Assembly: GCA_003833135.1 (NCBI GenBank)
Contig: QZLH01000413.1
Location: 7,186-71,185 of the forward strand
DNA from: Oehlia diaphana
Taxonomy: Eukaryota > Glomeromycota > Glomeromycetes > Glomerales > Glomeraceae
Reading direction: 5' to 3'
Length of the DNA: 64,000 nucleotides
Notes under the pieces: generated by a model
What the model was told of the DNA's origin: nothing
The model's database searches: none
The model's input: only the letters and a program-made list of their open reading frames with translations
Position numbers and translations under genes: made by a program
Shown: in pieces, positions 2,400-44,695 of the stretch
How the letters are laid out: every line of letters begins with the position of its first letter
Position numbering within the stretch: the stretch's first letter is position 1

Positions 2400-4085
2400 T
2401 GATCAATATAAGACACTTCTACTTTCCTTTCTCTTTTTCTCTTTTAAAACAAATGGTATGTTCAAAAATATTTTCTGATGATATACCAGAAGTGATGCAA
2501 AATACTATAGAAAAACTTAGTGATGATATAAAATCACTTCATTCTTCTATTTTGATAAATAGAAATTGTTGTTTTCTCGTGATAACTTTACTTTGGGAAG
2601 ATCCTTTTTCTGTTAAATATCGAAATAGTTTATTACCATTTCATTGACACATATTTTTCATTTTTAAATGAAAATGACAAAGATAAAATTAATAAAATTA
2701 AATTTCACAAGTCAGATATAATAAGTTCATATAAACCTTTTTCTAATTATCATACTTTAATAAAAACCTTAGATACTTTCCTAATGGAATTACATGTTAT
2801 AAATTGGCTCAACACTACAACTAGCTAGTAATGTTCAAGGAACTTTTAACGAAAAAGCTTATAATCAATTAATTACGTTGCAATATGAATCTAATGAAGA
2901 AATCAGATTGGTCAAGGAAAATAAATCATGGAATAACGAAATTCAAATAATTTGTACAATTTTATTCAACCTTTTTGTAGAAAATAATGTCATTTTAAAC
3001 AAACTACATATAATGATTGCTTTTTATAATGAATAACTTTTTGATTCTATTTATGAGTTGATTTTAAATAATCCAACGTTCATATCAAATATTGAAGAAT
3101 TTGCTTTTCATTTATTTAATTATAACAAACAATTCTCCAATTTTTGTCTTATCTTCCATCAACTCTTAAACATATTGAGTTTTTTCCTAAGGATCAAAAA
3201 TAGAGAAGAAAAAGATATTATTACAGATTTAATTAAAATCACAGTCACAACTTTCTTCAATTAATATGAGATTTTTTTATGATATATTAAGTCATTCATT
3301 CTTAGATTCTTTAAAAAATTCATCAAATACTTTAACATCATTGAATTTTGGCTCAGATATTCCATTTGATTTGAGTTATGATACACTTTCTCATCTTACT
3401 CAACTTGAATCTCTTCAATTTAAAGATTGCGAGTTGAATTCAAATATTTTTCGATCTTTACTTTAAAATTAAAACACCATTGAAGATCAAAACTTTGGTC
3501 ATTAAAAATATTCAGGTTGGAAAATTATCGAAATCGAATTATATGTTCAAAAAGTTGGTTATTATATAAAAAATTTGGTTTTGGATATTGGATATTTGGA
3601 TATGTTTAGAACGTTTATTGATGGCATTATTAATTATTGTGGAAAAGCTCAATTTCTTGATTTATGTCATATTGATTTCAGAAGTCATTATGAACATTTT
3701 TCTTATAATGGTATTTTTAATGATGATGTTAATGAATTTAAAATTAGTTCAATGATTTTAAAATTATTATGTAATTCTTTACCTCCTATTTTATGATATT
3801 TAGATTTAAATCTTGTGGTTAATCCCGATCATTTAAAATTACTTTTGGTAAATTGTGATCAAATTGATCTTAAAAAATTATTAATTAGAATTTGAAGTCT
3901 CATAATTTAGATGTTACTTTAAATGTTATAAAAAAGATTTTATTAAGAATAAGAATTTGAATTATTTATCTTATTCTATTAGGAATGATTCTAAATTTCG
4001 TAATAATTTGGAATTATTATTTAAAGAAATTCAATCATTTGTTAAAATTAAAAATAATTATGATTTAGCTATTAAAATTAGATAA
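2400..4085 (+). pseudogene. F-box/LRR protein pseudogene
   Basis: The 5' part (about 2455-2646) encodes an F-box-like segment, with DDIPEVMQN near the start and LLWEDPF at the end, matching the layout of the large F-box family in Rhizophagus. Later short open stretches (3058-3264, 3266-3466, 3575-3796 and up to about 4085) read as leucine-rich repeats, for example LTSLNF and LTQLESLQF. They lie in different frames and are broken by several stops and indels, with no splice signals that would reconnect them. F-box/LRR proteins normally recruit substrates to SCF ubiquitin ligases; this copy cannot make a full product. The family call is from motif layout only. Confidence 0.6.
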
Positions 4086-14877: not shown

Positions 14878-15484
14878 ACGGTACATGTTAATAAAATAAT
14901 ATTACAATTAGTGTTATATTAACTATTGTACGATATCCCTACAAGACCAATAATGAGTTATCTTAATATGGTTTGTATATAATGTACTGTAACGTTAATT
15001 TTAAAATACATTTAAAAAATTTTTATTTGCATTATTTATATTATTTATTCAAATAAAAATTTTCACCAATACCTTTTATTTTTTATCTTTTGTCATATAT
15101 TATTTTAACAATCAAAATACATTCAAAAAGATTAAAAAACAAATATTTTAATATTTTAATAAATAGATAAATCACATGTTTAGCTTCTTTTTATTTGTAT
15201 ATCTGACAAATTTTATATGGTAGTTTGTGAGAAATTATAAAATTGTTCGATATCACGTAACGATTGACACAATAAGGCTTGTCATACATACTTACAAATG
15301 CTTATGATCAACATAATACATAATCCATACTCATAAAAGCGTTTAATAAAAAAAAAAAAAAAAAAAAAATATTTACATTAACTTTTTCAGTCAAAGAGCA
15401 TTTTAATATATTTACATAGTAATGGCTCTCAGTAATGATAAAGGTAATAATTATGTGTATAGTATAAACATTTAATACAATTAG
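14878..15484. other. AT-rich spacer upstream of the exon-array kinase
   Basis: It should hold the promoter and first exon(s) of the gene at 15485-20148, but I could not identify a start codon or first exon with confidence. A possible acceptor (TTTTTCAG, ending at 15391) and a possible donor near 15432 exist, but joining them does not give the right phase at 15485. Confidence 0.35.
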
Positions 15485-15623
15485 AATTCTAATATTTTTA
15501 AACAAATTTATAATATAATAAAACTAGTTTCTGGTAATATTGAATTTGAAGGAAGCAGCACTGAAGAATTCAAAGGAAGTGACTCTGGAGAATTTGAAGG
15601 AAGTAGTACTAAGGAATATAAAG
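15485..15623 (+). CDS. Exon upstream of the array (Gly/Ser/Glu repeats)
   Basis: Open from the acceptor TTAG (ending 15484) to the donor AAAG|GTATAT at 15624, ending in phase 1. The frame encodes KLVSGNIEFEGSSTEEF and then two more EF(E/K)GS-type repeats. Composition is much less AT-rich than the flanks, which supports coding. Confidence 0.55.
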
Positions 15624-18600
15624 GTATATTAAACAAACTGAAATATTAAATTTTTGTTTATAAATAATTTAAAAATATTACCTTATATGATACACAAATA
15701 TAATTTAAACTATCTATATTATACAAAAATTATTTTAAATCATTTAGCTCGTAAGTTAATAAGTCATCCTATAATTGAATAATAATAGAATTACTTATTG
15801 TTTTTTATTATATTTCACGTGACCATTTAATGATATAGTTGGTAAGTTATCAGTTATTTTAAATCTCTAGTTCTTCACTTTATTATTTTATAAAATATTC
15901 AAATAACTAAATTCTTTGTTTAAATAATTAATTATATTACAGATGGTAAGTTACAACTTTATATTTACTTGACTAATATTTTATATAATTTAACTAATTA
16001 TATTCTTAATTTAAATCATTAGAATGTAAGTAATATATTTAATTTACAGTAAATACTTTTGCATTATGTTTATATCTAATTAATTAATAATTAATAATAC
16101 TGCAGGGTGTAAGTTATATTTATATTTCTATTATTTATATAATTTAAACTAACTAAATAATTTATTTTAAAAATTATTTTGTAATTTTATTTAGTTCGTA
16201 AGTTATAAGTTATTTTTTAATTTTATTATTACTTAAATATATAATATTTACATATAATTTAAACTAACTAAATTTTTTATTTAAAAAATTATTTAAATAA
16301 TATAGGGAGTAAGTTATTTATTTAATTCTAATGTTACTTTATTTATATAATATTTACATATAATCTAAACTAACTAAATTCTTTATTTAAAAAATTATTT
16401 AAATAATATAGATAGTAAGTTATTTATTTAATTCTATTGTTACTTTATTTATATAATACTAACATATAATCTAAACTAACTAAATTCTTTATTTATAAAT
16501 TATTAAATAATATAGGGAGTAAGTTATTTATTTAAATCTATTATTACTTATTTATATAATATTTACACATAATTTAAACTAACTAAATTCTTTATTTAAA
16601 AGATCGTAAGTTATATCATAAGTTATTTAATTCCATTATTACTTATTTATATAATATTTACATATAAATTTAAACTAACTAAATTCTTTATTTAAAAAAT
16701 TATTAAATAAAATAGTGGGTAAGTTATTTATTTAATTCTATTATTACTTATTTATTTAATATTTACATATAATTTAAACTAACTAAATTCTTTATTTAAA
16801 AGCATGTAAGTTATAAGTTATTTAATTCTATTATTACTTATTTATATAAAATTTACATATAATTTAAACTAACTAAATTCTTTATTTAAAAAATATTAAA
16901 TAAAATAGTGGGTAAGTTATTTATTTAATTCTATTATTACTTATTTATATAATATTTACATATAATTTAAACTAACTAAATTCTTCATTTAAAAGATAGT
17001 AAGTTATAAGTTATTTAATTCTATTATTACTTATTTATATAATATTTACATATAATTTAAACTAACTAAATTCTTTATTTAAAAGAATGTAAGTTATAAG
17101 TTATTTAATTCTATTATTACTTATTTATATAATATTTACACATAATTTTAACTAACTAAATTCTAAATTATTAAATATTATAGGGTGTAAGTTATTTATT
17201 TAATTCTATTATTACTTATTTATATAATATTTACACATAGTTTTTAACTAACTAAATTCTTTATTTAAAAGATTGTAAGTTATAAGTTATTTATTTAATT
17301 CTATTATTATTTATTTATATAACATTTACATATAATTTAAACTAACTAAATTCTATTTAAAAAATTATTCAAATATTTTAGATCGTAAGTAATTCTATTA
17401 TATTTATATAATATTTACATATAATTTAACTAATTAAATACTTTATTTAAAAAATTATTTTACAGAAGGTAAGTTATTTATTTAATTCTATTATTACTTA
17501 TTTATATAATATACATATAATTTAAATTAATTAAATGCTTTATTCAAAAAATTAACAATATAGGGCGTAAGTTATTTATTTAATTCTATTATTACTTATT
17601 TATATAATATTTACACATAATTTTTAACTAACAAAATTCTTTATTTAAAAGATTGTAAGTTATAAGTTATTTATTTAATTCTATTAGTTATTACTTATTT
17701 ATATAATATTACACATAATTTTAACTAACTAAATTCTTTATTTAAAAAATTATTAAATAATATAGGGTGTAAGTTATTTATTTAATTCTATTATTACTTA
17801 TTTATATAACATTTACATATAATTTAAACTAACTAAGTTCTTTATTTAAAAAATTATTCAAATATTTTAGATCGTAAGTAATTCTATTATATTTATATAA
17901 TATTTGCATATAATCTAAACTAACTAAATTCTTTATTTAAAAAATTATTTAAATAATATAGGGAGTAAGTTATTTATTTAATTCTATTATTACTTATTTA
18001 TATAATATTTATAATATTTACATAAAATTTAAACTAACTAAATTCTTTATTTTAAAGATAGTAAGTTATAAGTTATTTAATTCTATTATTACTTATTTAT
18101 ATAATATTTATAGTATTTACATATAATTTAAACTAACTAAATTCTTTATTTAAAAGATAGTAAGTTATAAGTTATTTAATTCTATTATTACATATCATTT
18201 ATATAATATTTACATATAATCTAAACTAACTAAATTCTTTATTTAAAAATTTAATAATACAGTTTGTAAGCTATTTGTTATTTCTATTGTTATGTATTTT
18301 ATAAATATTTACATATAATTTAAACTAACTAAATTCTTCATTTAAAAAATTATTTTACAGTTGGTAAATTATTTATATAATTCTATTATTTACTTATTTA
18401 TGTAATATTTATGTAATATTTATATATTATTTAAATTAACTAAATTCATTTATTTAAAAATTATTTAATAATATAGAGTGTAAGTTATATATTTTATTTA
18501 ATTCCATTATTACTTATTTATATAATATTTATATATAATTAAAACTAACTAAATTCTTTATTTAAAATTATTCATACAGCTTGTAAGCTATTTGTTATTT

Positions 18601-20148
18601 CTATTGTTATGTACTTAATAAATATTTATTTATTTAATTGAATCCTTTTATATAAAATTTCTGTTACTTTAGTTGGTAAGTTGTGAAATATAGGTTATTG
18701 TAATATATATTTATGCAAAAACTAAGATATACATTATATTAAATTTCTATTTAAATTTTAGAGTTAGTGTTGATTTTAATCTTAAATTTTTAGTGTAATT
18801 TTTAATATAAACTTCAATATAATTTTAATTATTTAAAATTTGTAGGTTTGGAAAAAGTGGAAATATAATTATAGATAATTTTATTTTGGAAAAAAAATTA
18901 AAATGGATTCCTTATGATAAATTTAAAAATGTTCAATATCTTGATAAAGGAGGATTTGGTACTATATACAAAGCTATTTGGTTAAATGATAATGAAGATA
19001 AAGAAGTAATACTTAAATGTCATAATAATTTAAGTGAAAACTTAAATGAATTTTTAAATGAAGTATGACAATATATTGTTTATTTTTTAATTAATTTAAA
19101 TTATTGTTTATTTATACTTATTTACTTATACTAGTATGTTATTATTTTTTATAGTGGAATTATCATAAAAACTGTTCAAATTCAGATAGCATTATTTATT
19201 TTTATGGATTTACAAAAGATCCAGATACTTTGAAATATATGGTTGTAATGGATTATGCAAACAAAGGTAATTTAAGAGGAAACTTAACAAGAATAATCAA
19301 AAGTAATTGGTATTGCAAATTATATATGTTATATGATATTAGTTTTGGACTTTATGATATACATTATCAAAATCTTATTCATTGTGATTTTCATGATGGC
19401 AATATTCTAAATCACAATGAAAGGAAAATTTATATTAGTGATTTAGGATTATGTCAACCTGTAAAATCATTTTTGAAAAAATATGATATTTATGGTGTTA
19501 TATCATTTATGGCACCTGAAGTTTTAAGAGGCAAATCTTATACTCCAGCTAGTGATATATATAGTTTTTCTATGATTATGTGGGAATTTACATCTGGAAT
19601 ACCACCATTTAATAATAGAGCACATGATATTCAACTTAGTTTAAGTATTTGTAAAGGAGAGCGTCCTGAAATTATTGAAAATACTCCACAATGCTATGTA
19701 GATTTAATGAAAAAGTGTTGGGATGAAGATCCATTAAAAAGGCCATCGTCTAATGAAGTGCGCAAGATTTTTAATAAGTGGATTTATCTTGATAATAAAA
19801 TTGAAAATATTAATGAAGAATTAAAATGCAATATTATGGAATTTATAAATTCACCAATTGAGCATAACAATCTTACTGCTGAATCACATCCACAAACATG
19901 TTATACAAGTCGCTTACTTGATTTTACTAGTAAAGAATTGAATGAAATTCTTGAAAGTGAAGATTCACAAGCTAATGTAAAAGTGAATGAATTACTAGTA
20001 AGTAAAGATTTGGATGATTGTATATTTAATTTGAAGTCATTAGGTATGTAGTATATTATATAAAAGAATTAATTTTGCAAAATTATTTATGTGAAATTAA
20101 TTTTATTTATTTAATTATTTAGATATTAAAACAGATGAAATTAACTAA
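15485..20148 (+). CDS. TKL protein kinase with microexon-array N-terminus (5' end not found)
   Basis: Proposed exons: 15485-15623; 31 exons of 3 nt and one of 7 nt (18762-18768) within 15748-18768; 18846-19062; 19155-20043; 20123-20148. They sum to 1371 nt in one open frame. The first exon encodes Gly/Ser/Glu-rich repeats (EFEGSSTEEFKGS...). The 18846 exon gives SGNIIIDNF and LKWIPYDKF, the usual lead-in to Rhizophagus TKL kinases. The kinase shows the loop GGFGTIY, ILK lysine, HCDFHDGN (non-RD) and SDLGLC, where DLG replaces DFG, then the C-lobe CWDEDPLKRP. The catalytic Asp remains, so activity is possible. A short tail follows to 20148. The kinase exons are solid; the array exons are inferred from splice motifs only, and the start codon is missing from the model. 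Confidence 0.7.
15624..18845 (+). repeat. Tandem intron-like array, 31 units joined by single codons
   Basis: At 31 boundaries the sequence reads AG, three variable bases, then GTAA (GTAAG except at 18364). The 3-nt pieces start at 15748, 15839, 15943, 16023, 16106, 16195, 16306, 16412, 16516, 16603, 16716, 16803, 16909, 16996, 17086, 17184, 17272, 17382, 17466, 17564, 17652, 17766, 17871, 17962, 18058, 18157, 18263, 18361, 18477, 18580 and 18673. The intervening units are 81-124 nt, and most contain AACTAACTAAATTC, a good fungal branch-point match. From about 16109 the units are near-identical; the first five are diverged yet keep the splice motifs. The codons have about 35% GC, far above the units. 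Confidence 0.85.
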
Positions 20149-21279
20149 TTAATAAATAATTCATAGTTTTTTTAAGTGATATTTGACATGATGGTATTTA
20201 GCAGAAATTGATTTTTATTTTATTTTTAGATTTATTTAAACACTAAGACTAGAGTAGCAAAATATTTACAAGTTTCTTAGTTTGCAATTTAAATAATTCC
20301 TTTTTTTATAGCTTATCCAATTGCAAGTATTAAATATTTTATTTTACTTAGAATTATTTAAACACTAAGACTAGAGTAGTAAATACAGTACTTTACAAGT
20401 TTCTTAGTTTGTAATTTAAATAAATCTCAAAATTTGCCGTATGCAGGGAACTTCATCCCCATAGTTAAATTTTTTATATTTGTTATTTTTTATAAATAAT
20501 TTATTTTTTTATATTTTTTTATATGTTGTACATATTCTTTATTACCATTCATTATTTTTTTTTCTTTCTCACACTTTATCCAGATGTTAAAAAGAAAATA
20601 TTGAATGAAATTGATAAAAGTTATTTTCATTAATTTACTGTATTTTATTAATATCAGCCAATGCACTTATTTATTCATTTCTTAATATTTTATGACTTAT
20701 TTTGACTTATAATACTTTTATTTTCTCAAAAAATAATTTAGTTAAAATCACTTTATTAATTTAATATTGTTTCATTATATAATCACTCATTAAAAATTAA
20801 AAAATTATTAAACTAATCTTAAGAATTGTTACCTAATGCGTATTTCAATAATTTCTTACGCTCCTTTTACCTTACGGAAGTAATTTTAAATCTATACTTT
20901 TATGAAAATAAAGACAGCGCCTAAAAAGTTATTTTTGATTCCATATATTAATTTTAGCAAAAAAGTCATCAGTTCGTAAAATTTTGCCATACAACTGTTA
21001 TTGTCCGGAGAGAAGCGAAGGACAGTATATGTTTACGCACTATGAAAAAAAATGATCCCGTGAATTTCTCTGTGATCGTTGCCCAAAATTTTAGTTTTTT
21101 TCGCTCCGGACTTACAACGGTTCCCGTTTCCTAGTAACGATTAATGAAAGAATGTCGGACTGCCTGATGTAAAAGATTATACTATCGTGCTTCTTCAAAT
21201 TGGTTTAAAAAATAATTCGAAAATAGAAATCAAATTAATTTATAATATTAAATTTTTCTTTCAGTTTGTTATTATGAAT
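20149..21279. other. AT-rich spacer with a tandem duplication
   Basis: Downstream of the kinase. It holds the 20219-20424 duplication and a somewhat GC-richer patch (about 20990-21180) with no recognisable gene. Confidence 0.5.
20219..20424. repeat. Direct duplication, two units of about 80 bp
   Basis: Units at about 20219-20295 and 20340-20424 share TTTAAACACTAAGACTAGAG and ACAAGTTTCTTAGTTTG followed by AATTTAAATAA, with few differences. It lies just 3' of the kinase. Confidence 0.8.
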
Positions 21280-40424: not shown

Positions 40425-43400
40425 ATGACTTCTGTAAAAGAATGGGTTGAGGAAAAGATAAAAAATAAATATATCCAATATTTTGAATATGATAAATTTA
40501 GTCAAATAGTCGAAATTGATAGAGGAGGTTTCGGTAAAGTGAGTAAAGCAAATTTGGCTAATACGGGATTGGTCGCACTAAAAATTATTTTTAGTAAAAA
40601 TTCAAATATTGGAGAATATGAACTTATTAAGGCTAATTATGAGCTTGTCAAGGAGGTAGGAATCGCTTTTTTATGTTGTACATTATATTAGCTTTATATT
40701 CAATAAAAATAAGGATTAATTTTGTTCTATCATTTTTTTTTTTTTAGTTAGAACTCCTTCGCGAGATCGATTATCGTCAAAACATCAATCGTATTCTGGG
40801 AATAACAAAAGGTTAATGTTAAGAAAATTTTTCAAACAATTTACTTAAACAGCTCAATCTAACTTATTTGTATTTAATAGATTCTGAGTATTACATATTG
40901 GTGTTGGAATATGCCAATGAAGGAAATTTAAGAGATTATTTGAAAAAAAAATTTACTTCCTTGAAATGGAATGATAAAATTCAAATGGCATTGGATATTA
41001 CTAATGGATTGAAATTTTTACATTCCGAAGATATTATCCATAGAGACTTGGTTGGTAAAGGAGTTTATAATTTTTTATATTTCGATGATTAATTTAATAA
41101 TTACTGTCAATTATTTTGTAGCACTCACACAACATATTAGTAAATAATGGAAAATTATTAATTGCAGACTTTGGAACATTTAAAAAGTTGACAGAAGTCA
41201 CGACCAGTAAAAACTGGATGGTAGAATATATTGATCCACAATGTTTTAGGCATGTCGATTATAAAATAAATATAAAGCTGATGTCTATAGTTTAGGTGTT
41301 TTATTATGGGAAATTTCAAGTGGACGTCCTCCTTTTTCTAACTGTTCGCAAGACACACGAAATAAACTTTATCATCTCATTAAAGATGGTCATAGAGAAG
41401 AATCAATCAAGGGTACACCTCTAAAGTATCAAAGACTTTATCATGAATGTTGGGATGGCGAACCAAAATCAAGACCCGATATCGAAGAAGTACATGAAAT
41501 TTTATGTCAATTAAATACAGGTACAAAATAATTTAATGTAAACAATGAATTTAACGAAAAACTAATGAATATAAATTAAATATAGAAAAGCTCGGACCGG
41601 AAAAAAATTGGTATTCGGACTGGTTAGAAAAATCAATTGCCGAAGAATTTATCACATATTACGAATATTCGGAATTTAAAAATCCACAAACAATAGGGAA
41701 AGGTTCATTTGGAAATGTCACTCGTTCTAATTGGAAAAATACTAATAAATATTTTGCCTTGAAAAGTTTCAATGATGATAAAACAATACTAAAGGAAATA
41801 ATTAATGAGGTATAAAATTATATATAATAGTCTAAAAATTTTCAATGATTTTTATCTTATAAATTCTTTGCAGATAAAATTGCAAAAAAAAGTTGATTTT
41901 CATGAAAATATTTTACGATTCTATGGGATCACAATAACAAAAAAAGCTGGTAAATCTACATATAATTACATTATTTCTGCCTTATTTTTAAAGAAAAATA
42001 TATTTAATGTTTTTTTTAATAATACATTTAAATATAATTCAAGAATACGCATTGGTTTTGGAATATGCTGATAGTGGTACGCTAAAGACTTATTTACAGC
42101 ATCACTTTAATGAACTTGGATGGGATGATAAATACCAGTTTGCACTGCATAGAAAGTGCGGTAGCGTGTATACATGAATGTGATATTATTCATTGTGATT
42201 TGGTAATAAGTCAATTTTATGATTTTTAATATTTAATTTTAGCTGATTAGTAATAAAGTTCTTGCATTTAATCAAAATAGCATGCTGACAATGTATTTGT
42301 ACATGAGAAAAAGTTAAAACTGGCAGACTTTGGTTTATCAAGGAAGATTGCAGCATCAAGTAATCTAAAAGTATTTGGAGTGATACCTTATATCGATCCA
42401 AAAAGGTTAAGTGATCAGCAAAATTATAAATTAAATAAGAAGTCTGATGTATATAGTGTTGGTGTTTTAATGTGGCAAATTTCGAGTGGATATCAGCCAT
42501 ATCCATCATATGATAATAAGTATGACGTAAGTTTAGCCATATCAATAATAAATGGAAGAAGAGAAGAAGTTATTGAGGGGACCCCTGCTGAATATAGTAA
42601 ATTATATACAAGTAATAATTAATTCTATTATTTAATTATTTTTAATTAATGATAAAATTAAATTTTATTGATTTATTTATTAGAATGTTGGAAATATGAG
42701 CCAGATGAACGTCCAAATATGCAAGATGTCGTTTTAATTCTTAAAGCCTTAATCTCTCCTGAACAAAATGATACAAAATTTGATGAAGTTTATAAAGAAG
42801 AAAATATCTTATTAGAAAAATATAAATCAAGCTCAAAATCGAGTGAAGGAATAGAAGATATAAATAAGAGTTTATCAGTAGGTTCAGTGGATTTTGCCAC
42901 ATTAAATAATATAGAATCTGGAAGCAATTTAAGTATGTAATATCAAGTATCTGTTGCTCGATCGAATTTTTTTGAAAAAAAAAATGAGGTTATAAGTTAT
43001 ATTAATTTAATTTACAGAAGAATGCTGGGATGGCGAATCAAAATCAAGATATGATGTTGAAGTAGTACATGAAATTTCAAGTCGATTAATATTGAGGATT
43101 CACAATATTCACAATTTAATTTACCAAATATTGATAACAATGACAACTTAATTATTTCTTCAGATTATCAAAATTCAAATTTAATAAGTAAGTGTGATAT
43201 ATTAATTATGTTAATTAGCATCAGAATGAATTTATTAATAATCTGCTACTGATATTAATCAGGTTTAGCTTCAGACACTTCCAAGAATTTATTTACCCAT
43301 TCTCTCAGTAAATCAAAATTAAGAAATCAAGATTGGATTAATGAAGAATATTCAAATAAAGAATTTATGGATATTATTGAAGGCGAAAAGTTAAAACTTA

Positions 43401-44695
43401 AAGGTCCTTTGAAAATAAAAGACTTTATGAAGTTAAAAAGTATTAGTTTAGAGAAATGTGAGTTAACCAGTTTGGAAATTAGTGGTTGTCCTCAGCTTAT
43501 TAAGATTGACTTATCAGAACTTTTCAGACTTACAAGTTTATCCATAACTAAATGCTCAGAACTAATCACATTTGATTGCTCATCAAATGAGTTAACCAGT
43601 TTGGAAATAAGTAATTGTTATCATCTTAATAAGATTGACTTGTCAAAACTTCCTAAACTCACAAGTCTATCTGTAACTGAATGTCAAAAACTGACCAAGC
43701 TTGACTGTTCTAATAGTAAATTAACTGAGTTGGAAGTTAGTAATCTTATTGAGCTCAACTGTTCGAATACTTCAATTGAGGAATTAAATCTTAATTTTTG
43801 TCCGAATATTAAAAAACTCATTTGTTCTAACAATGAAAAACTAATTAATTTAGATGTAAGCATTTGTTCACAATTAGACTTTCTTGATTGTACCAGCAGT
43901 AAATTAACTATTCTTGACCTAAGTATTTGCTCCAAATCTATTATGGTTAAACCTCCTAATATGGATATTATCCAAGAAAAAGAAAAAATTAAGAATATAG
44001 TGATAGTTGGCTGCACTGATGTTGGTAAATCTACATTAGCCAATGTATTAACTGGCTCTGATTATTTCAGTAAAAATGCATACACAGCTAGTAAGACTAT
44101 AAATTTCAAGAAAAAACATTTTAAATGGAATGGAAAATATTTTTGTATAGTTGATGCTATTGGACCTAAACTAACTACAGGAAATACTTTACTCAAATCA
44201 GTAGAAGAAATCTTTTCTATGCTAGAAGGGATAAGCCAAATTTTATTTGTGATTGATGGAAGATTCACAACAGAAGAAATAAAAATATTCAACTTACTCA
44301 AAGGTCTTATTACCAATATTTTTGAAATTAACATTCTTGAATATGTTACTATTGTGAGAACTAAGTTCAGTAATTTTAAGAAAAAAAAGGAATGCGAAGC
44401 AGATAAGAATCAATTGCATAATGAGAATGAGAGTATTAGTGAAATAGTTAAATCATGTAGAGATGTTGTTCATGTAGACAATCCTTCAGTAAATATTCAA
44501 ATTACTGATGATGATGATCAATATACAATTAATATTAATAAAAAAATAAGAGAAAGGTCAAGAAAGATAATGTTAGACTATTTAGATGAAGCATGTCAGG
44601 TAGATCACTTCAAATTAAAATCATGGGATGAGACACATAAACTGGTTGCTGAATATATAGAAAGTAATTGTGAGAATTTACCAAAGTTAGAATAG
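40425..44695 (+). pseudogene. Kinase-kinase-LRR-AIG1 GTPase gene with three frameshifts
   Basis: Proposed exons: 40425-40655, 40748-40811, 40881-41050, 41122-41520, 41586-41809, 41874-41949, 42044-42202, 42281-42611, 42684-42932, 43018-43187 and 43263-44695. Kinase 1 has DRGGFGKV, VALK, HRDL, ADFG and CWDGEPKSRPD. Kinase 2 has GKGSFGNV, ALK, HCDL (non-RD), ADFGLS and CWKYEPDERP. A partial third C-lobe follows (ECWDGESKSR). The last exon encodes about seven irregular LRRs, then an AIG1-like P-loop GTPase (GCTDVGKST, DAIG, RTKF). Indels near 41275, 42155 and 43085 break the frame; otherwise splicing is consistent. The last exon alone is open for 442 codons. A paralogue lies at 52517-55531. Confidence 0.8.
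43367..44695 (+). CDS. LRR plus AIG1-type GTPase, intact terminal segment
   Basis: Open from an internal Met at 43367 to a stop at 44695 (442 codons), part of the last exon above. Residues 10-190 are LRRs of the LTSLEISGCPQLIKIDLS type. Residues 215-223 form the P-loop GCTDVGKST, 263-266 is DAIG (G3), and 331-334 is RTKF in the position where AIG1/GIMAP proteins have a divergent G4. GIMAP-type GTPases bind GTP, dimerise at membranes and act in immunity in animals and plants; the fungal role is unknown. It could be expressed on its own if the upstream part is dead, but that needs a transcript. Confidence 0.6.
   Translation: MDIIEGEKLKLKGPLKIKDFMKLKSISLEKCELTSLEISGCPQLIKIDLSELFRLTSLSITKCSELITFDCSSNELTSLEISNCYHLNKIDLSKLPKLTSLSVTECQKLTKLDCSNSKLTELEVSNLIELNCSNTSIEELNLNFCPNIKKLICSNNEKLINLDVSICSQLDFLDCTSSKLTILDLSICSKSIMVKPPNMDIIQEKEKIKNIVIVGCTDVGKSTLANVLTGSDYFSKNAYTASKTINFKKKHFKWNGKYFCIVDAIGPKLTTGNTLLKSVEEIFSMLEGISQILFVIDGRFTTEEIKIFNLLKGLITNIFEINILEYVTIVRTKFSNFKKKKECEADKNQLHNENESISEIVKSCRDVVHVDNPSVNIQITDDDDQYTININKKIRERSRKIMLDYLDEACQVDHFKLKSWDETHKLVAEYIESNCENLPKLE

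Follow-up and report, generated by a model that had tools for sequence, protein, structure and literature searches.

A protein kinase gene in the 64,000-nucleotide (nt) stretch of Oehlia diaphana DNA analyzed here, called the window throughout, carries an array of 31 three-base pieces separated by intron-like repeat units. Very probably, this array is coding sequence distributed over single-codon exons, with all 31 joined in order and the series closed by an exon of only 1 nt. This reading comes from a computational comparison of genomic sequences. An initial annotation of the window had described 31 successive boundaries in which AG, exactly three bases, and GTAA follow one another, with GTAAG in all but one case. 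A pattern count confirms the description: 31 AG-NNN-GTAA boundaries lie within positions 15746-18675, of which 30 read GTAAG and one reads GTAAA (18364). The interval 15600-18900 contains 30 copies of the arrangement AG-N3-GTAAG, compared with a single copy in the remaining 60.7 kb of the window, and spacers of 0, 1, 2, and 4-11 bases between AG and GTAAG each occur 0 or 1 times in 15600-18900. Units in the window are spaced 80-116 nt apart. CTAAC or CTAAT is found in 25 of the 31, in agreement with the reported CTAAC in most units, and the GC content of the triplets (0.355) is indeed well above that of the unit bodies (0.07-0.20). The annotation also stated that the first five units have diverged. 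A repeat finder places the start of the main array at 16206, after the sixth piece and not the fifth.

Sister arrays provide the material for a more stringent analysis. All genome-wide counts refer to a genome of 108.8 Mb in 1,672 contigs, with the window in contig C411. The pattern CTAAC-N(8-38)-AG-NNN-GTAAG occurs 1,015 times (513+502), compared with 130+138 matches to a reversed-pattern control. When the spacer is set to 2 or 4 bases, the counts are 86 and 88. The motif TTTAGTTGGTAAGTTNTNA, typical of TTG pieces, is present 113 times genome-wide and 0 times in the control. Stretches were fetched where pattern matches cluster, first 14 and then eight smaller ones, and kinase matches were obtained with tblastn in 12 of the 14 first-fetched stretches. 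Eighteen first-family arrays were read, including that of the window, plus two of a second family. Set one comprises 10 arrays (the window, L019, L020, L021, L025, and L027-L031), and set two comprises eight fetched later (L033-L040). The second family consists of two arrays in three stretches of contig C38 (L022:3297-6291 and L023:8605 continuing to L024:1647). First-family arrays contain from 6 to at least 71 pieces as called, some being cut by the end of a stretch (L033, L034, and L036 start within the first 65 bases), and in 15 of the 18 the kinase start lies no more than 400 nt from the last piece.

In the frame set by the upstream exon, the 31 pieces of the window contain no stop codon when joined (ALDEWFRNRNLALDKW...), as had been claimed. 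Each codon in this register straddles two pieces: its first base closes one piece, and its other two bases open the following piece, ∼90 nt away in the DNA. Stops are absent from the 236 consecutive junctions of set one (shuffle mean 13.3, never below 5 in 5,000 within-array reorderings), from the 292 of set two (12.2 expected, with a minimum of 3 in 3,000 shuffles), and from the 57 of the second family (3.5 expected; P about 0.007). Pooled over the three groups, 0 of 585 consecutive junctions have a stop, versus ∼29 expected from reordering. Where a piece ends in T, the next begins with AA, AG, or GA in 0 of 150 cases, compared with 123 of 435 for other endings. These counts omit L026 (alone 0/5) and junctions that span unfilled gaps; in L028, L031, and L023, one or a few outliers among the pieces were likewise removed. 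A recount with whole stretches and only GTAAG or GTATG pieces gives the same result for the 18 arrays (0/453 stops; 21.0 expected, with a minimum of 8 in 1,000 shuffles), whereas skip-one junctions counted in this manner have 17 stops in 371 versus 16.8 expected. Since tandem duplication copies neighbors together, each ordered pair type was also counted once, with skip junctions sharing the same relatedness. Consecutive junctions then have 0 stops in 320 pair types and skip-one junctions have 20 in 310 (Fisher P=5e-7). Once pieces are skipped, from one up to five at a time in set one and up to four in set two, stops recur at the shuffle level. Stops are avoided at consecutive junctions only, and therefore selection, as judged from these counts, sees the pieces joined in order in a split-codon register, one base into the codon. 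Apart from translation of the spliced product, we know of no process that would prevent such distant bases from spelling stops. The behavior of the pieces is thus that of coding exons spliced together in sequence, and stop avoidance is indirect evidence that they would be translated as part of the mature mRNA.

The same counts bear on the purpose proposed at first for the array, which was the creation of many N-terminal kinase variants through free inclusion or skipping of single codons. Every subset of 3-nt pieces preserves the downstream frame, micro-exons of animal brains are often alternative (PMC4674806), and a deposited protein discussed below takes only 10 of the 31 pieces. However, stops are purged only where neighbors meet. 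Junctions from one piece to the second next have stops at 11 of 213 in set one (11.9 expected) and at 12 of 265 in set two (11.1 expected), and those to the third next at 9 of 190 (10.3 expected) and 10 of 238 (9.8 expected), respectively. Skipping at random would frequently yield a truncated protein, and we regard free inclusion as quite improbable.

The distance of exactly three bases is also conserved. Of the 521 GTAAG motifs within the 18 array spans, 511 are preceded by AG at a distance of exactly 3 nt. Each of the other spacings from 0 to 12 is represented 0-5 times, except for 36 cases at spacing 1, 34 of which also have AG at 3. The ten exceptions to spacing 3 include nested motifs (TAA triplet, GTAAGTAAG), units with a decayed AG, a 6-nt exon (L038), and a 1-nt spacer (L028). 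Moreover, 38 of the 71 gaps between GTAAG or GTATG pieces contain a weaker donor 3 nt after TAG or CAG, and the other spacings from 0 to 9 are each found there at most five times. The pieces therefore have the form of 3-nt microexons, in that AG and GT are 3 nt apart and the splice signals look functional. Ratchet points of recursive splicing, by comparison, leave no bases in the mRNA. Their zero-length arrangement, with GTAAG directly after AG, is seen at only 5 of 521 motifs, all of which also have AG 3 nt upstream, so the arrays do not have the form of ratchet points. Rare in-frame 6-nt exons, ACATTG and TTGGCC (L022:6179, L038:5430), are present inside arrays.

The proposed layout of the gene is as follows, with slashes marking splice junctions. 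P0001 is a deposited Rhizophagus diaphanus protein that matches the kinase 3′ of the array at 99% over 75% of the query in a protein search; the next matches listed are from R. irregularis.

15422..15443, forward strand: exon 1, ATG GCT CTC AGT AAT GAT AAA G; the final base opens a codon, and P0001 starts MALSNDKV.
15528..15623, forward strand: exon 2, 96 nt long, which contains coding repeats of 24 nt (SGNIEFEGSSTEEFKGSDSGEFEGSSTKEYK) and has the 3′ end AAA G/GTATAT; its residues are matched in P0001.
15748..15750, forward strand: 3-nt exon no. 1 (CTC), with AG at 15746 and GTAAG starting at 15751.
15748..18675, forward strand: array of 31 three-base exons and 30 internal introns; triplets lie 2-4 bases past each AG position.
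18673..18675, forward strand: final 3-nt exon (TTG), which is TTG or TCG across the 15 loci with a nearby kinase start.
18762..18762, forward strand: proposed 1-nt exon A, TTTTAG/A/GTTAGT; G + A + G would give Glu ahead of FGKSGN.
18846..19062, forward strand: kinase exon 1, containing ..FGKSGNIIIDNFILEKKLKWIPYDKFKNVQYLDKGGFGTIYKA.., with tblastn support.
19155..20043, forward strand: kinase exon 2, an open frame with the Pfam matches given below.
20123..20148, forward strand: terminal exon (DIKTDEIN stop), in agreement with P0001.

Pfam families PF07714 (E=4.4e-32) and PF00069 (E=3.1e-31) are matched at 19155-20050, and the whole gene with the 31 pieces and the 1-nt exon encodes 447 residues without a stop. 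Because exon 2 stops after the first base of a codon, the closing exon must be 1 mod 3 in length. The initial annotation had assigned this role to a 7-nt exon at 18762-18768, which the paralogues do not favor. In all 15 loci with a kinase start no more than 400 nt from the last piece, the closing site reads TAG-N-GTWAG. N is A in 14 of them and G in L021, and the resulting codon is Glu in 13 loci, Asp in L037, and Gly in L021. An 18-mer at this site occurs 24 times genome-wide and 0 times in the control. Most likely, judging from these paralogues, the closing exon is one base (A, 18762) rather than seven. The 7-nt exon was dropped once the 1-nt site proved common to the readable loci, and the shared site was also the reason for dropping a 31-nt exon at 18764-18794, which had been part of the first protein query, and a 5-nt exon in frame 0. 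No kinase start was seen in L030 and L038 when loci were checked for the closing site.

The array could instead be one or several long noncoding minisatellite introns in which AG-NNN-GTAAG is frozen into the repeat unit. The units are clearly tandem repeats. Direct joining of 15623 to 18846 does give a stop within a few codons, as first described. The frame stays open, however, when the array is skipped and a closing exon of 1 or 7 nt is retained, because the 31 pieces amount to 93 nt, and therefore the frame alone is no proof of obligatory inclusion. Yet a skipped repeat needs no avoidance of stops at consecutive joins (0/585), and the spacing is constant at 3 despite window units of 80-116 nt. 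The same spacing is found in the second family on contig C38, the introns of which are different (they score 0.82 against window introns, compared with 0.66 for shuffled sequences and 1.09-1.44 within families). We regard a noncoding array as very improbable. Hardly credible is a reading in frame 0, with whole codons (LLMNGFGIG...) and a 5-nt exon AGTAA leading to the kinase as some deposited models seem to have it (..LSKFGKSGN), for although TAA, TAG, and TGA triplets are scarce (3/259 in set one versus 10.3 expected from letter shuffling, P=0.003; 0/321 in set two), the pre-array exon ends one base into a codon (by eye in the window, L019, L020, L026, L027, L029, and L030), the 5-nt exon has no GT donor in L031 and yields S-stop-FGK in the window, five triplets are stops in this frame (GTAAG is the donor of one, and the remaining four have weak donors; two of the five are in the second family), and order-dependent avoidance exists in the split-codon register only.

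P0001 reads STKEYK-DEWWNRMVEF-GGFGT in the array region. If exon 2 has the 3′ end drawn above and the kinase acceptor is placed at AAAG/GAGGATTT, window 3-nt exons can spell this segment in five choices, all of ten pieces, according to an exhaustive search. Exons of 3 nt thus seem to be present already in a public annotation. Some deposited models show ..LSKFGKS at the kinase entry, and these may have been forced into another register, as gene finders do not place 1-nt exons. Strings resembling GILELVIELLLGIGLLLELGILGIELS precede SKFGKS in P0022 and P0039 of R. irregularis, which suggests that similar arrays may exist in that species; the N-terminal part of P0022, used as a protein query, matched itself only. 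That the deposited Rhizophagus models examined disagree in the array region is perhaps due to the fact that gene finders seldom place exons of 1 and 3 nt.

Several observations weigh against single-codon exons that are all joined in order and closed by 1 nt. The stop absence is significant because sister arrays are pooled, and not in the window by itself, where 0 of 30 consecutive junctions (1.3 expected) is not a significant result (P=0.17). The 18 arrays contain 34 unfilled gaps, and junctions across gaps were excluded. TAA, TAG, and TGA triplets are rare even though the split-codon register does not require it; this rarity may reflect avoidance of decoy donors (AG-TAA-GTAAG and AG-TGA-GTAAG, the former of which contains GTAAGT). 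The 1-nt exon of the window has the weaker donor GTTAGT, compared with GTAAG in the other 14 loci. In L028, where the last called piece is >400 nt from the kinase, T is the single base of the closing site and the kinase acceptor appears to have been lost; this array also includes the 1-nt spacer. A 2-nt spacer is present in L026, where little kinase is left, and exon 2 of L019 has no AG at the acceptor position. The deposited models also disagree with the structure: P0001, which may be an ab initio model, takes 10 of the 31 pieces and a more downstream kinase acceptor, and so backs 3-nt exons but not the exact structure. P0022, P0039, and P0063 skip the array or appear to read other frames.

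Two of these loci have further features of note. L026 (contig C46, 203000-211000) contains a kinase with a C-terminal tblastn match only, and its 2-nt spacer is as expected if the coding constraint has been lifted. In L019, at ∼3600-3700, AACTGG stands where the exon 2 acceptor of the window reads AACTAG; the locus has a 42-piece array, and decay or use of another acceptor is possible.

If single-codon exons are joined as proposed, each 3-nt exon would complete one codon with its first two bases and begin another with its third, and an intron of ∼80-115 nt would lie inside every codon. The 1-nt exon would restore the register of the kinase exon (...STKEYK-ALDEWFRNRNLALDKWYYQGHWYRNNIFESF-E-FGKSGN...), and the product would gain a 32-residue N-terminal extension between exon 2 and the kinase, with longer segments expected from the longer sister arrays. 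Tiny exons are considered hard to splice because adjoining spliceosomes would clash. The introns would be recognized by their own signals, which are GTAAG, a CTAAC-like branch site, and AG. The third base of the triplets is nearly even (A 142, C 114, G 147, T 137; n=540), and therefore the exon side seems to be of little help to donor recognition; GTAAG and AG, by contrast, are conserved, as intron-side recognition would predict. Introns are probably removed one by one in the 5′-to-3′ direction. Single removal is likely because splice sites 3 nt apart can hardly serve two spliceosomes together, and this order would be the simplest, with each step adding one codon to the upstream exon and setting the finished exon against the next GTAAG. 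Splicing would then operate as a ratchet that retains three bases per click.

Growth of such an array would be equally simple. Duplication of an intron plus its triplet would add exactly one codon at any unit length, and arrays could lengthen or shorten by this route without breaking the frame. The initial annotation argued that a plain duplication of an intron unit ought to carry its three bases along, which is half right: among 207 junctions between near-identical neighbors in the same array, the triplet is shared at 83 and different at 124. Triplet variability is 0.18-0.41 per site versus 0.07 for the inner left flank, and 0.20-0.43 versus 0.05 when compared with a chosen nearest neighbor, a measure biased by the choice. 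With ungapped right and left flanks as controls (0.17 and 0.29-0.31), only the third triplet base is clearly above its surroundings. Single-base triplet differences between near-identical units change the amino acid in 68 cases and are silent in 3 (∼19% silent expected), in a count that takes pairs from both sides and in which splicing may constrain the second base. At most, these data suggest diversifying selection on the triplets.

Many loci have similar first pieces (CTC TTG ATG/AAA ATT/AAT GGT) and last pieces (CTT or CCT, then TTG), and the middle portions differ strongly among sister genes. The most frequent residues over 528 codons are Arg, Asn, Leu, Phe, and Trp. It is plausible that the added segment, as predicted, recognizes a partner or substrate. 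The second-family arrays belong to another kinase subfamily, and the array in L022 lies 3′ of the kinase domain, so that its pieces would contribute to a C-terminal tail. This distribution suggests more than one origin or transfer of the architecture. Introner-like elements are near-identical introns scattered singly through unrelated genes; the arrays read here are tandem (no search was aimed at scattered single copies). On balance, we lean toward a broader scenario in which a segment encoded one codon per exon, and assembled by a splicing ratchet, has spread through a large group of kinases in a mycorrhizal genus (at the N terminus of one subfamily and the C terminus of another), has been resized by unit duplication, and has diversified mainly at amino-acid-changing positions.

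Known systems share some of these characteristics. The micro-exon genes (MEGs) of Schistosoma mansoni also form a multigene family with chains of very short, mostly frame-neutral exons and longer introns, and are hard to annotate automatically. They comprise 35 genes with 10-20 short exons, mostly of 15 bp (6-81 in the text of the paper and 3-81 in its abstract), and introns of up to about 5 kb, and they encode secreted proteins with prominent alternative splicing (PMC10526429). The arrays described herein likewise have many very short exons in a chain (31 in the window; the 18 arrays range from 6 pieces to at least 71), but these are exactly 3 nt, number in the tens, are separated by introns of mostly ∼80-115 nt, and reside in kinase genes. 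They exhibit no sign of selection for skipping, in that skip junctions are not kept free of stops.

Exons of 1 nt have precedents. Arabidopsis APC11 has a constitutive 1-nt exon between two introns, for which intron definition and recursive splicing, with introns removed in succession, have been proposed (PMC4674806). That exon is isolated and was demonstrated experimentally, whereas the putative 1-nt exon here caps a 3-nt chain and is known computationally. In fungi, CYP621A of Fusarium has a single 1-nt exon required for correct assembly of the coding sequence (PMC12940212). An exon of exactly 3 nt is found in Drosophila homothorax, where it is single and alternatively spliced (PMC7392893). 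The ratchet points of Drosophila recursive splicing resemble the arrays in stepwise removal and in having adjoining acceptors and donors (PMC8605326, PMC6110457), but they serve long introns, whereas the introns here are short and three bases would be kept per step. For arrays of single-codon exons, no description was found in the open-access literature, which was the only literature searched, and nothing relevant was found there on microexons of Rhizophagus irregularis.

If the proposed structure is correct, chains of 31 to at least 71 tiny exons in more than 12 genes would provide a natural system in which to study intron definition, the order of splicing, and stepwise intron removal. They would also represent a new route to protein lengthening, in which an intron duplication equals one codon and array length is free to drift. 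Variable N- or C-terminal tails would be present in a very large gene family (R. irregularis has 2,533 kinases according to PMC10234402), with relevance to arbuscular mycorrhizal symbiosis. The same paper reports Nanopore RNA-seq from spores of R. irregularis DAOM197198.

Additional features were observed in and around these loci. A short array at L031:2192-4071 has a kinase-like reading frame on its upstream side and a second kinase on the other, and P0070, a deposited 646-amino-acid R. diaphanus model, looks like a fusion of two such kinases. Just 3′ of the kinase gene in the window, a ∼65-nt segment (TTTAAACACTAAGACTAGAGTAG...) is present twice at ∼20230-20420, as noted by eye. Farther downstream, at 43367-44695, the window contains a 442-amino-acid open frame with 129-nt repeats (Tandem Repeats Finder, 43463-43744).

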